From contig BJGN01000020.1 of assembly GCA_014190515.1 (NCBI GenBank), positions 1-32,915 on the forward strand: a DNA stretch of 32,915 nucleotides, written 5' to 3'. Position 1 is the first letter of the stretch. The number at the start of each line of letters is the position of its first letter. The position numbers and the translations under genes are program-made. Shown here one piece after another: positions 21,221 to 25,664 of this stretch. Under the pieces are notes generated by a model that was not told where the DNA came from, made no database searches, and worked only from the letters and a program-made list of their open reading frames with translations. The stretch is from Bacteroidota bacterium (GTDB lineage Bacteria > Bacteroidota > Bacteroidia > Chitinophagales > Saprospiraceae).

Positions 21221-21333
21221 AGGCCTATTTACCATACAATTAAATTTAAGTCCACGAACCGTAAAACAAATTCGATTTTTCCTTTTTTTAAATTTTTATT
21301 ATATTGTATTATGCTTCACAAACAGACTGCGCA

Positions 21334-22737
21334 ATGAAAAAAATAGATAGAAGAAAATTTATGACCACAGCAGCAACGGCGGCTTCATTTATGATTATCC
21401 CCAGACATGTATTGGGTGGAAAGGGCTTTATCGCGCCGAGTGATAAAGTAAATGTAGGATTGGTAGGGGCCGGAGGAAAAGGGAAGGAAAATGTGCGGGA
21501 TTTATTTAAATTGAATGACGTTCAAGTTACTTGTTTGGCGGATCCGGCAGAATATTGGGATTTAAACCGTTTTTATTATAAGACCGTTGCAGGGTTGGGG
21601 CCAGTTTCAGACATGGTGGAGAATCATTATAAGGAAAAATCAGGGTATTCAAAAGTAAACAGATATATCGATTTTAGGGAAATGTTGTCCAAAGAGACGT
21701 CTTTAGATGCTGTTCTTTGTGCTACGCCAGATCATTTACATGCCTACGTTTCCATGCTTTCCATGCAGGCAGGCAAACACGTGTATTGCGAAAAACCACT
21801 CACTCACAATATTCATGAGGCGCGCGAGGTTTCAAAAATGGCAAAAAAGACTGGCTTAGCCACTCAAATGGGTAATCAACTGCATAGTTCGCCTGCTATT
21901 AGGAATGCAGTCGAATATCTACGTTCCGGAGTGATAGGAAAGGTAAAAGAGGTTCACTCCTGGGTGCCCGCCACGAGATGGACAAATAGTTTGAAAGAAA
22001 TGCCCACCGCTGCGTCGCCCATGCCAAAAGGACTAAACTGGGATCTTTGGGTTGGACCCAGGTCAAACAGACCTTTTAATGAGCTATATGCACCGGTTAC
22101 CTGGCGTGATTTTTGGGAATTTGGATTAGGGGCTTTGGGAGATTTTGGATGCCATGACCTCGATGCGGCCACCTGGGGCCTGGAATTAGGATTGCCTGCC
22201 AAAATACAGGTGCACCCTGCAGGATTTAGTAATTCGGACATAATTCCCTACGGAGAAATTGGATATTTCAGTTTTCCAGATGGGATTAATAGCAATGAAT
22301 TTATAGATGTGACCTGGTATTCTGGTGGTTTATATCCTAAAAAACCTAAGCAACTTCCATCTGATATTGTCTTTTCCAGAAGAGGGGCCATGTATGTAGG
22401 AGAAAAGGGCGTCATGGTAACGGGAAATGGGGATACGCCTAAGGTTTTTTCAGATAAAAACCTGGTCCAGTCTGTGGAAACTACCTTTAAATTACCTCCT
22501 ACCGAGGGGCATCACCGAGACTGGATTAATGCAATTAAAGGAGGACCTGCCGCTAGTTCCAATTTTGAATATGGCGCACATCTTACCGAAATCACTCTCT
22601 TAGGCGTACTTTCTCTTCGGTTGGGAGGCGCATTAATCGATTGGGATGCTAAAAATTTGAAAGCCGTTGGATTGCCAAAAGCAGATGAGTATATAAGGGA
22701 ATCAGAGAGAACAGGATGGGAATTACCAAAGGGGTAA
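21334..22737 (+). CDS. Gfo/Idh/MocA family oxidoreductase with a Tat signal
   Basis: The protein has 467 residues from the ATG at 21334; the TTG at 21304 is rejected because the Tat signal would be displaced. The N-terminus K-I-D-R-R-K-F-M-T-T-A-A-T-A-A has the twin arginine at 6-7 and a hydrophobic stretch, so the protein is predicted to be exported folded with its cofactor. The Rossmann motif is G-L-V-G-A-G-G-K-G at 42-50, followed by the family E-K-P-L-T-H-N motif and a C-terminal Gfo/Idh/MocA domain. Such proteins reduce or oxidise sugars or cyclitols using NAD(P). The substrate is unknown and no sugar-degradation genes are adjacent. Confidence 0.85.
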   Translation: MKKIDRRKFMTTAATAASFMIIPRHVLGGKGFIAPSDKVNVGLVGAGGKGKENVRDLFKLNDVQVTCLADPAEYWDLNRFYYKTVAGLGPVSDMVENHYKEKSGYSKVNRYIDFREMLSKETSLDAVLCATPDHLHAYVSMLSMQAGKHVYCEKPLTHNIHEAREVSKMAKKTGLATQMGNQLHSSPAIRNAVEYLRSGVIGKVKEVHSWVPATRWTNSLKEMPTAASPMPKGLNWDLWVGPRSNRPFNELYAPVTWRDFWEFGLGALGDFGCHDLDAATWGLELGLPAKIQVHPAGFSNSDIIPYGEIGYFSFPDGINSNEFIDVTWYSGGLYPKKPKQLPSDIVFSRRGAMYVGEKGVMVTGNGDTPKVFSDKNLVQSVETTFKLPPTEGHHRDWINAIKGGPAASSNFEYGAHLTEITLLGVLSLRLGGALIDWDAKNLKAVGLPKADEYIRESERTGWELPKG

Positions 22738-23036
22738 ATTATGTAGCAGTTTCTTTTTAATATCTTATTTTTACTATGATTGTTCTTCATTGTAAAAACG
22801 TTTAGGACACTATTTATTTCTGGTTTTTGTTTAAATAATAAACAAAAAATCTGAGAAATTAAAGCAACTTAAAGAAGTTGGGCTTATGTTATTAAGCCTA
22901 TTTCCATTTGTTGACCTGCAAGCCGATAAAACGTCGATAACGACAAGCCAGGCCGCAGGTACAGAGTGCCTGATAATTCACATTAATGCAAACCTCATGG
23001 ATCGGTCATGCCAATGATGCCCAACAGTCTTTTCTT
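22738..23036. other. Convergent intergenic region with two hairpins and the edge of the GC-rich island
   Basis: About 300 bp with no coding frame. A perfect 10-bp hairpin, TTTTTGTTTA (22824-22833) with TAAACAAAAA (22839-22848), has a five-base loop. A second hairpin pairs GGCTTA (22881-22886) with TAAGCC (22893-22898). Base composition rises sharply from about 22,905 on, before the Kelch gene end. Neither hairpin has a strong T-run, so transcription ends here are uncertain. Confidence 0.55.
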
Positions 23037-24038
23037 TCAGGGATAACTACTGGCTGGTCGGTAAGTCTGATGAATGGTACTCCCGCTGGTGCCACCGCTC
23101 GAGGTCCCGCCGCCCGGAAGATGGATTAAGCCGTTGAGGAATGCAGCGCCTGTCACTCCGTGCACCGGCGTGGGCATATCCGGCAGGTGGATCCAGGAAT
23201 TTCTGACTGGATCATACACGTCGTGGTCAGGGAAGACCCCGTTGGCGGCTTGCGCATTTCCCTCGCCCCCGAAGACGTGGATGAAGCCGTAGGCGACGAT
23301 AGCGTTCACTCCACCGCGTATTTTGAGCATTGGGGTGGCTGTTGACCAGTTTCCTGTTGTGACATCATACACCTCCACTTTGTCGAGCGTTGGCGTGTCG
23401 AACCCGGCGCCGGTACGACCACCCAGCACATAAATTTTGCTCCCGACGCTCACCATTCCAAGGTGGTTTCGCTGGGTTGGGAGGCTGGGAAGGAGCTCCC
23501 AGCGATCGGTAGCGGGATCGTAGACGGCAAAGTCATTCCCGCGAGGCGGCCGGCCTCCAGCGACATAGATCCGTCCATTCACAACCGCCGCCCCGCCGCC
23601 ACTGCGGGCGGTAGGCATGGGTGTGCGGGTGCTCCAGCTCCCATGCTTGGGATCGAAGGCGTAGACGGTGTTCACGAAGGGACCGTCCCCACCGGCCTCA
23701 GTTTGGCCACCGATGACGTACAGGACTCCGTTCACCGACACAGACATGGTATGATTGAGGGCTACGGGTAGTGGCGCGCTTCGACGCCATTGGTCTTTGG
23801 CGGGGTCATAAACCTGCACCACTGTAGTACTGATGCGAGTCGACGGATATCCTCCGAGGACGTATATCTGCCCATCGAGCTCTGCGACGGACATTTCCGA
23901 ATTCGCCTCGAGGAGGTCCGCGCGTCGTCCCCAACGGGAGGGCTCGCTTGCTGGAGTTGAATCGATACTTGATTTCTTACAAGTAGATGAGATGATTACT
24001 GCAAATAATAGCAATAGTCTAAATTTATTAACAATCAT
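23037..24038 (-). CDS. Exported six-blade Kelch-repeat protein of foreign base composition
   Basis: The protein has 333 residues from the ATG at 24038; the TTG at 24068 is rejected. A hydrophobic leader (F-R-L-L-L-L-F-A-V-I-I-S-S-T-C-K-K) looks like a lipoprotein signal, although Thr before Cys is unusual. Six Kelch blades follow, seen by double-glycine turns: Y-V-L-G-G-Y, Y-V-I-G-G-Q, Y-V-A-G-G-R, Y-V-L-G-G-R, H-V-F-G-G-E and H-L-P-G-G-G, with W and Y-D-P motifs in the intervening strands. Such propellers bind sugars or proteins; no catalytic residues can be assigned. Codons up to about residue 28 are AT-rich like the neighbours, whereas the propeller part is GC-rich (row 23581-23640 has 45 G/C of 60; row 24001-24060 has 14 of 60). 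Confidence 0.85.
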   Translation of the reverse strand: MIVNKFRLLLLFAVIISSTCKKSSIDSTPASEPSRWGRRADLLEANSEMSVAELDGQIYVLGGYPSTRISTTVVQVYDPAKDQWRRSAPLPVALNHTMSVSVNGVLYVIGGQTEAGGDGPFVNTVYAFDPKHGSWSTRTPMPTARSGGGAAVVNGRIYVAGGRPPRGNDFAVYDPATDRWELLPSLPTQRNHLGMVSVGSKIYVLGGRTGAGFDTPTLDKVEVYDVTTGNWSTATPMLKIRGGVNAIVAYGFIHVFGGEGNAQAANGVFPDHDVYDPVRNSWIHLPDMPTPVHGVTGAAFLNGLIHLPGGGTSSGGTSGSTIHQTYRPASSYP

Positions 24039-24211
24039 AGAGGATATTTTATGGTTTAGATTTCCCAATCCGAAAAAGGTTTAATTGTATTGTATGTAGT
24101 CAAAGAAATTGGATAATTAAGTTGTAGAGTGTTTTGTTATTTGTATGTAGAATTTTTTCTTAATGATTGTAGTGTTCGTCCTTTCATGGAACCAATCGCG
24201 CGATGCCCCAT

Positions 24212-24242
24212 TTTAGTGTCTCATTATTAATGACCCACTAAA
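24212..24242. repeat. 31-bp near-palindrome in the gap upstream of the Kelch gene
   Basis: TTTAGTG (24212-24218) pairs with CACTAAA (24236-24242), and inside it TCATTA (24221-24226) pairs with TAATGA (24228-24233) around a single T. A 2-base mismatch (TC/CC) separates the two stems. A third partial copy, GTGTCTTAATGA, lies at 24244-24254, and CCCATTTT/AAAATGGG (24207-24214, 24255-24262) encloses the whole. Function unknown. Confidence 0.5.
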
Positions 24243-24596
24243 GGTGTCTTAATGAAAATGGGCAATTAGTAGGGGATAACTTAGCACTTAGTGAATTTAG
24301 AGGTTAATTATTTTTAACGTAAGTAATCAAAGAAACTTTCTCAGTCAATATTAAAGTTCCAAAATCCCTTGTATTTTTTTCTAAATAATTATTTAATTAA
24401 ACAATACCACCTGAAGCATCATAAATAGCTTTTACATTCCTTAAATCCATTTTTTAAGTACACAAATCAGGTGATTCTTGTCCCACCTAAACTTTTGAAT
24501 TGAGATTTATTTAGGACAATATTATTCTAAAAATTATTATTGATGTAACTTGTAACATTTATTGATGGTGTTTTCACAATGTTGTTCAGGATATTG

Positions 24597-24631
24597 CGCA
24601 ACCACTTATAAGGGGTTGCGAAACTTTTTTT
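24597..24631 (+). terminator. Orphan plus-strand terminator-like hairpin
   Basis: CGCAACC (24597-24603) pairs with GGTTGCG (24614-24620). The inner CTT/AAG pair (24605-24607 with 24610-24612) adds three more pairs after a mismatch. A run of seven T follows at 24625-24631. The polarity fits transcription on the plus strand, but no plus-strand gene lies between 22738 and this point. Confidence 0.55.
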
Positions 24632-24776
24632 GACCATTAGAATTTTAGTAACAAAATGGTAATACACTACCCTTTAGAATCAATGTCGATAAAATAGTAC
24701 TAAAGGTCTTCTATATAAAAACATCCAACAGTTATCTAAAATATAGAAACATAGATGGAGGCTATCTCCCCTTTTG

Positions 24777-25664
24777 TCAGATTAGATTTTTTCTAAAAAA
24801 TGCAATGGTCTTCTCCCAAGCTTCTTTTGCTGCAGTTTCATCGTAGCGAGGGGTAGTATTGTTATGGAATCCATGATTGACTCCTGGAAAGTTAATCATC
24901 TGGTAGTTTTTACCCTGGGCTTTTAAGGCTGCTTCATAGGCAGGCCAGCCCGCATTCACCCGTGAATCCAGTTCCGCATAAATGACCAAGAGCGGTGCTT
25001 TAATCTGTGCTACATCAGCAGCTTCTGGCTGTCCTCCGTAATATGGCACGGCTGCTTTCAAGTCAGGGATTCGGACGGCCATCATGTTAGAGATCCAACC
25101 GCCAAAGCAAAAACCGACCACGCCTACATTCCCGTTGCAGTTGGGATGGTTTTTCAGGAATTCGTAGGCTGCAATAAAGTCTTCGAGCATTTCTTCGCGG
25201 GTACGTTTGGCCTGCATGGCCCGACCTTCATCATCATTGCCTGGGTAACCACCCAAGGGAGTCAGGGCATCGGGAGCAAGTGAAATAAATCCATCTACAG
25301 CACATCTTCTGCCCACATCTTCAATGTAGGGGTTGAGCCCTCTGTTTTCGTGGACCACTACGATACCGGGAAACTTTCCATTTCCGACAGGAGTGGAGAG
25401 TAGTCCTTTGATTTGTCCTCCACCTTTCGGGGAAGGATACATTAGGTATTCAGAACCTTGAAGTCGTTCGTCGTCTGAAGATACGGTCCAGGTGCTGTGG
25501 TAGTCTGGCGTCATACTGCTTAGCAAGGCCGCAACGGTAATTCCACCGACAGCATAGATGGATAACTTCTCGATGAAGGTTCGTCGGTCCAACTTGTTGT
25601 GGCAATAGTAGTCGTAGAGGTCAAAGACCTCTTGCGGGATATCGGCTTTGTTGAGTTTTTCCAT
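24777..25664 (-). CDS. Dienelactone hydrolase-family protein with an N-terminal Tat-like segment
   Basis: The protein has 295 residues. An N-terminal extension of about 55 residues holds D-R-R-T-F-I-E-K-L followed by a hydrophobic helix (A-V-G-G-I-T-V-A-A-L-L), like a Tat signal or anchor. The hydrolase core has the Glu of H-E-N-R-G-L (E106), the nucleophile C186 in G-F-C-F-G-G, the acid D233 in A-E-L-D-S-R and the histidine H264 in N-H-G-F-H. This Cys-Asp-His set is that of dienelactone hydrolases. The substrate is not known, and no chlorocatechol genes are near. A molybdenum hydroxylase operon follows on the same strand after 240 bp, but a hairpin between them suggests separate transcripts. 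Confidence 0.87.
   Translation of the reverse strand: MEKLNKADIPQEVFDLYDYYCHNKLDRRTFIEKLSIYAVGGITVAALLSSMTPDYHSTWTVSSDDERLQGSEYLMYPSPKGGGQIKGLLSTPVGNGKFPGIVVVHENRGLNPYIEDVGRRCAVDGFISLAPDALTPLGGYPGNDDEGRAMQAKRTREEMLEDFIAAYEFLKNHPNCNGNVGVVGFCFGGWISNMMAVRIPDLKAAVPYYGGQPEAADVAQIKAPLLVIYAELDSRVNAGWPAYEAALKAQGKNYQMINFPGVNHGFHNNTTPRYDETAAKEAWEKTIAFFRKNLI

Follow-up and report, generated by a model that had tools for sequence, protein, structure and literature searches.

A chimeric kelch gene of probable foreign origin in a Saprospiraceae genome joins an AT-rich leader to a GC-rich propeller

The window analysed here, a stretch of 32,915 nucleotides from a Saprospiraceae bacterium (genome G000, contig BJGN01000020.1), carries on its minus strand (24038-23037) a kelch gene of 333 codons plus stop, which is a genuine chimeric gene of foreign origin. 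We consider it likely, with a probability of roughly 0.68, that the gene was acquired horizontally and combines parts of different origin, namely a foreign GC-rich propeller and an AT-rich leader. As far as sequence comparison goes, the same join is present in a second genome, titled Bacteroidetes (G040), and the gene is absent at the five congener sites seen. The coordinates of the features are collected in Table 1.

Table 1. Features of the kelch unit and its surroundings, in window coordinates.
Feature	Position	Strand	Basis or content
Gfo/Idh/MocA oxidoreductase, conserved left neighbour	21304..22737	+	Pfam; synteny
Stretch without congener counterpart, holding the kelch unit	22788..24523		comparison with G001 and G003-G006
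Non-coding tail, common to L002 and L019	22928..23036	-	46% G+C
GC-rich kelch propeller, codons 31-333 plus stop	23037..23948	-	60.6% G+C without stop; Kelch_1; AlphaFold2 model
AT-rich leader, codons 1-30	23949..24038	-	hydrophobic stretch and Cys20; probable lipoprotein signal; aligns with L002 leader
AT-rich 5' stretch common to the L002 copy	24039..24092	-	29.6% G+C; blastn match
Dienelactone hydrolase family, conserved right neighbour	24777..25664	-	Pfam; 95-99% amino acid identity in 5 of 6 congeners

The composition of the gene changes abruptly within one reading frame. Codons 1-30 contain 28.9% G+C and codons 31-333 contain 60.6%, compared with 39% in the rest of the window, and the GC3 rises from 0.2 to 0.66; 15-codon bins of 0.20 (codons 1-15), 0.20 (16-30) and 0.80 (31-45) place the break at codon 30/31 (23949/23948), near the sharp switch at about 23,955 claimed in the preliminary description, whose row counts were also reproduced upon recounting (45 G/C of 60 at 23581-23640; 14 of 60 at 24001-24060). 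The 15 sixty-base rows of the propeller hold 31-45 G/C each, and the 517 rows outside the kelch region reach a maximum of 40, only one of them standing at 36 or above. At 60% G+C, the propeller lies about 6 standard deviations above the other 900-base stretches of the window (39.0%, sd 3.3%, maximum 48.6%). For steps in GC3, 25 likely genes picked from the window's 39 ORFs served as the comparison set. The kelch gene shows the largest step between adjacent 30-codon blocks (+0.53, at codon 31), followed by two other genes with 0.50 and 0.43; a local step of such size is not unique to it. The contrast between the first 30 codons and the remainder is +0.46 in the kelch gene and -0.25 to +0.10 in the other 25 genes. 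The leader is host-like in composition, with a GC3 lower than the whole-gene value of all 22 other genes compared (lowest 0.257). A TTG at 24068 is a possible alternative upstream start, and the ATG at 24038 is the start matching the relative L002. The GC-rich block had been said to continue past the stop, and a GC-richer stretch is real there but weaker, at 46% over the tail.

The GC-rich part of the gene encodes a kelch propeller. The protein matches Kelch_1 (Pfam PF01344) with 167.1 bits against a cut-off of 20.1 (E 4.7e-50), and an AlphaFold2 model built from 20 aligned sequences has a mean pLDDT of 87.5, with residues 1-32 below 50, and contains 24 strands, which are predicted to form six four-stranded blades. 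In a structure search of the model, the best 50 PDB matches listed (Z 36.6-38.9) consist of kelch domains, with one entry whose title mentions just an antibody complex. With motifs over the curated cut-off and a propeller fold in the model, the protein belongs to the kelch-repeat beta-propellers, and the strands, the Pfam match and the PDB domains together uphold the six-blade Kelch module proposed earlier. The kelch domains of Keap1 and NS1-BP share the motifs and the six-bladed fold, the best 50 listed being animal or designed; the animal domains among them are 24-31% identical to the window protein, which, unlike them, is bacterial and stands behind an export leader. NanM/YjhT, an N-acetylneuraminate epimerase, likewise shares the kelch fold, and the window protein scores above the cut-off of the broader Pfam model PF24996 (72.8 against 45 bits). 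Identity with this mutarotase was nevertheless rejected, as the NCBIfam cut-offs of the curated NanM/YjhT models (including TIGR03547) are missed by far, at 65.1 of 416 and 61.9 of 256.35 bits. The 20-row alignment A1 comprises the window protein and 19 of the 22 loci of a genome scan (all except L019, L021 and L023). In it, R145 and R190 are invariant, E48, N95, H96, N191, H192, R241 and H293 are nearly so, and the segment GGRPPRGNDFAVYDP is exact in 15 of the 20 rows. Given the kelch fold, these conserved residues would all face the central channel from the same side, and the propeller most likely binds a ligand via a pocket, deduced from the alignment, that is lined with conserved polar residues.

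The closest relatives of the propeller point outside the host phylum. The scan of genome contigs, which yielded the 22 loci, reaches only places sharing one of six eight-residue stretches exactly, and closer relatives may have been missed. The best match, L002, lies in a bin titled Bacteroidetes (LaPlata-a_bin-0315, that is, G040) and is 88% identical over all 333 residues; the second, L003, lies on a contig titled Gemmatimonadetes with 73% G+C and is 78% identical over residues 29-333, and next come four Verrucomicrobiota loci at 62-66%, three of them titled Opitutae or Opitutaceae. In a tree of the window protein and 21 of the 22 loci (without L019), the window and L002 form a group with supports of 100/97, which joins L003 with 100/99 and then the four Verrucomicrobiota with 97/96. 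A second tree, which omits L019, L021 and L023 and takes in 7 of the 19 loci L024-L042 (L025 and L030 were dropped, their pieces being too short), places five Bacteroidota kelch proteins from relatives within the family or order at a great distance from this group, several of them on long branches. The kelch matches in the 39 relatives searched are at most 43% identical. The gene tree conflicts with the host and the presence of the gene is sporadic, as in horizontal transfer. On these matches, the propeller family is otherwise found here in GC-rich bacteria, nearest in Gemmatimonadota and then in Verrucomicrobiota. The description of a GC-rich foreign propeller behind an AT-rich leader agrees with the tree and with the next-best matches, which lie outside Bacteroidota. 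The best match for the whole protein, in contrast, lies in a Bacteroidota-titled bin with the same step, which speaks against a fusion made in this genome.

The N-terminal parts vary in this family: Opitutae members are extended there by about 300 residues, L016 has a Big_2 domain, and L003 has a lipoprotein-like leader. The latter stands at the same position as the window leader and is different in sequence, and the first 40 codons of L003 contain 78% G+C. L003 is 78% identical to the window propeller and has a GC3 of 0.93 versus 0.66, which implies that the window gene has ameliorated strongly or that its donor was less rich in G+C. The Opitutae extensions, at L004:4110-5906 and L005:2260-4080, have no Pfam match at E 0.01. 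We also observed family members with 50-51% identity on two MAG contigs titled Klebsiella pneumoniae (L009 and L011), whose species labels look doubtful.

Next to the window copy, L002 gives a measure of the age of the join. It shows the same compositional step (36% G+C in codons 1-37, then 59%), and blastn aligns window positions 24092-22928 with L002 2128-3296 at 82% identity, so that the shared unit of about 1.17 kb takes in 54 bp ahead of the ATG, the gene, and 109 bp downstream of the stop; outside it, the flanks of the two copies are unrelated within the 2.1 kb compared. The dS between the copies is 0.756 for codons 1-31, a value based on only 21 silent sites, against 0.705 for the remaining codons, the dN is 0.137 in the leader and 0.062 in the propeller, and the overall dN/dS of 0.098 indicates a protein kept by selection. 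As leader and propeller are about equally diverged at silent sites, the fusion would predate the separation of the two copies; the join thus appears older than their split. The preliminary description had proposed a recent capture behind a resident leader, which is not supported in that form, because L002 contains every part of the unit, from the 5' stretch and the leader to the tail, at 88% protein identity. When polarised by L003, the changes comprise 30 GC>AT and 6 AT>GC on the window branch and 32 GC>AT and 1 AT>GC on the L002 branch, and amelioration towards AT is, judging from these counts, under way in both copies. The tail of the window copy is identical to that of L002 at 86 of 121 positions and to that of the second G040 copy, L019, at 89 of 122 (71-73%), compared with 102 of 169 (60%) at four-fold sites. 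L002 and L019 are 85% identical in the tail, with a pS of 0.07 at silent sites over the 93 codons available; since their tails differ more than their silent sites, the comparison speaks against strong constraint on the tail. When the L002 tail plus repeat was searched against eight genomes, the tail part occurred only at the kelch loci, save for short matches at E 0.07 or worse. The promoter scan gave 10 matches versus 4.2 in shuffles and the terminator scan 5 versus 1.7; a terminator-like site on the strand of the kelch gene falls within the tail, and we draw no conclusion from these scans. The assignment of G040 to Bacteroidota rests on its record title, and the single core gene compared between G000 and G040, AtpA, gave only a 29% partial match in the 2.1 Mb bin.

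The leader contains, by eye, a hydrophobic stretch and Cys20, and is probably a lipoprotein signal. The residues before the cysteine are S-S-T in the window copy and S-S-A in L002, the former departing from the usual lipobox; those after it read C-K-K-S-S and C-K-K-S-K, respectively. Surface-export motifs vary between genera, so surface exposure of the product is still possible. The motif given for Capnocytophaga surface lipoproteins is C-X-K-(D/E)2-X (PMC5080379), of which the window copy lacks the two acidic residues. Together with the Thr preceding the cysteine, this leaves the immediate surface export that had been claimed without support. Most likely, the protein is attached to the outer membrane, on either side, by a lipid anchor. 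Nor could the leader be called resident, as its DNA was found nowhere else in G000, the six congeners or G040: across these eight genomes, the leader plus 5' stretch matches only the two kelch loci, the next-best matches being 26-31 bases at E 0.02. Because the leader is found on no other gene, its origin can be judged by composition and type only. The genes of the window also include a GldH lipoprotein and a Por_Secre_tail protein (Pfam), which, among other genes, point to a Bacteroidota host.

The kelch unit lies in a spacer between two conserved genes. In G001, G003, G004 and G006 the oxidoreductase and hydrolase genes are adjacent without the kelch gene, and the matched flanks are 87-95% identical in DNA. 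The left limit of the unmatched stretch is about 22742 against these four (parting at 22739-22742) and 22787 against G005, whose left spacer resembles that of the window up to 22787, about 50 bases beyond the oxidoreductase gene; the right limit is 24524-24627 in the four. The G005 site carries two other genes instead, one for a 293-residue protein that matches nothing in Pfam and one for a member of the beta-lactamase family that bears a Por_Secre_tail domain. The sixth congener, G002, gave no hydrolase match at the limit used, and absence at the site therefore covers five of six congeners. Neither the kelch protein (tblastn, E 1) nor 22788-24523 (blastn, E 0.01) has a match in the five congener regions. 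The arrival of the unit at this site looks recent. A gain here is the simplest reading; because the tree of the flanking genes places G000 among the congeners only weakly (supports 36-59) and the left spacer resembles that of G005, the gene may instead have been gained earlier and then lost once in the other four. As a separate observation, the spacer (22738-24776; L062:1909-4647 in G005) varies in content, holding the kelch gene, two other genes, or a shorter sequence without kelch. G005 also has a gene pair without window counterpart between the hydrolase and a molybdopterin oxidoreductase (L062:5825-6606), which resembles a GNAT toxin with its antitoxin. At the left edge of the window, 308-1834 encodes a protein that combines a Schlafen AlbA_2 domain with a RecG-C-like ATPase domain. 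A 14-base direct repeat with one mismatch occurs at 22801 and 24510, its second copy ending at the right limit, but it was rejected as a target duplication, as 14 families of direct repeats and 23 inverted pairs, many of comparable length, turn up in the same stretch.

The surroundings of the gene in G040 are different. On a 3.7 kb contig (L002), the kelch gene is preceded by genes for a metallophosphoesterase and a tRNA-Leu(CAG), and a second, partial kelch copy (L019) begins another contig. Sequence like the tRNA-Leu 3' end occurs four times in G040, on these two contigs only, and about 80 bases from downstream of the tRNA-Leu recur at two of these four sites. Over L002:179-3480 and L019 (contigs C377 and C169), the repeats alternate with, or are flanked by, the metallophosphoesterase, the kelch copies and a protein with a Peptidase_S74 domain. 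The arrangement suggests a tandem island associated with a tRNA gene, resembling tRNA-anchored genomic islands in having a gene after tRNA-Leu(CAG) and repeats like the tRNA 3' end, and differing from them in that no integrase was noticed on the two short contigs. The likeness does not extend to the window, where no tRNA was found, nor to the rest of its genome, the tRNA-3'-end repeat having 0 hits in G000 and 4 in G040; Rfam at gathering scores on the window, L002 and L019 reported only the tRNA in L002.

The gene is rare, and the vehicles considered do not account for it. No kelch homologue was found in the six congeners at E 1e-3, and at E 1e-60, with up to 5 candidates scored per genome, only G000 was positive among 396 genomes drawn from its order and only G040 among 395 drawn from its phylum. 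Plasmids and phages were rejected as vehicles, with 35 of 72,556 plasmid records and 80 of 50,697 phage records matching, every one below 60% identity; plasmid DNA gave no match to L002 2050-3480. Among viral contigs, a single-sequence scan found no kelch relative, and the alignment as query found 24 at 26-35% identity. One viral contig contains the 22-base core of the tail, but the useful match is limited to those 22 bases and was taken as chance. An attC site consists of a core-site pair and a folded structure after the gene; an integron cassette, considered here because the copies have the tail in common, found no support, since shuffled sequences fold just as well as the tail DNA (z 0.00) and no core-site pair in the right order was seen by eye.

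The reading we prefer would run as follows. A propeller gene would have entered a Bacteroidota and lost its own leader, and recombination in the linker near codon 30 would have put the propeller behind a start region and leader usable by AT-rich Bacteroidota, such that the product could be expressed and exported there. The unit would then have spread between Bacteroidota, landing here in the variable spacer of two convergent genes, and selection (dN/dS about 0.1) would have kept the protein while its base composition drifts towards that of the hosts. An old gain in the common ancestor of G000 and G040, followed by near-universal loss and without late transfer of the chimera, would fit the dS of 0.7 between the copies and a variable spacer that could lose genes; with the gene in none of six congeners and 1 of 396 genomes of the order, unrelated flanks, and two copies beside a tRNA and among repeats in G040, we regard it as unlikely.

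Another reading dispenses with the leader swap, the donor's own leader having ameliorated faster than the propeller. The lipoprotein-like leader at the same place in the Gemmatimonadota locus L003 and the higher dN of the window leader are in its favour, yet the leader has fallen below the lowest of the 22 other genes in GC3 while the propeller still stands at 0.66, the AT-rich part runs on through the non-coding 5' stretch, and silent divergence is nearly equal in both parts, which makes it quite improbable. A fusion made recently in this genome, behind its own lipoprotein leader, would account for the sharp step, the AT-rich leader and the absence from congeners; it is very hard to reconcile with an L002 leader and 5' stretch diverged about as much as the propeller, and no other leader copy exists in G000. 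Finally, both genomes are drafts (355 contigs here, and for L002 a 3.7 kb contig titled MAG), which might raise the suspicion of an assembly or binning artefact, but the same join in a separate record and the synteny of both window flanks with congeners leave this scarcely credible.

Beyond the horizontally acquired two-origin gene, the 5' stretch, leader, propeller and tail may constitute a self-contained, integrase-free unit of a single gene travelling among Bacteroidota, with the AT-rich start as a ready-made adaptor, an idea that we offer tentatively and regard as doubtful. If true, the unit would have accreted beside tRNA-Leu in one genome, in two copies, and entered a gene-exchange spacer in another, and an adaptor for expression and export would make foreign GC-rich secreted domains usable in AT-rich hosts. 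Gene transfer with exchange of a leader or domain is an established kind of event, of which this is a neat example. Streptomyces GlxA, a galactose-oxidase-like kelch-fold protein, is held to come from fungi and has a G+C below that of its host (PMC3543389). It is comparable in having the kelch fold, in being regarded as a gene that crossed a wide gap, and in its foreign composition and envelope-associated product, and differs in its fungal source, its lower rather than higher G+C, and in that the cited part of the paper describes no leader swap (PMC3543389). A search of full-text literature by title found no report of such a leader-propeller chimera, a weak result, since most subscription papers and preprints fall outside its scope. 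Together, these data make the gene a well-resolved case of an exported protein crossing phyla, in which the first 30 codons and the 5' stretch were exchanged as well, the junction lies within the linker that separates leader from propeller and is modelled with low confidence, and two genomes share the fused gene. With a donor-side relative and a gene-free site both known, it can be asked whether leader replacement makes foreign exported proteins work in Bacteroidota.
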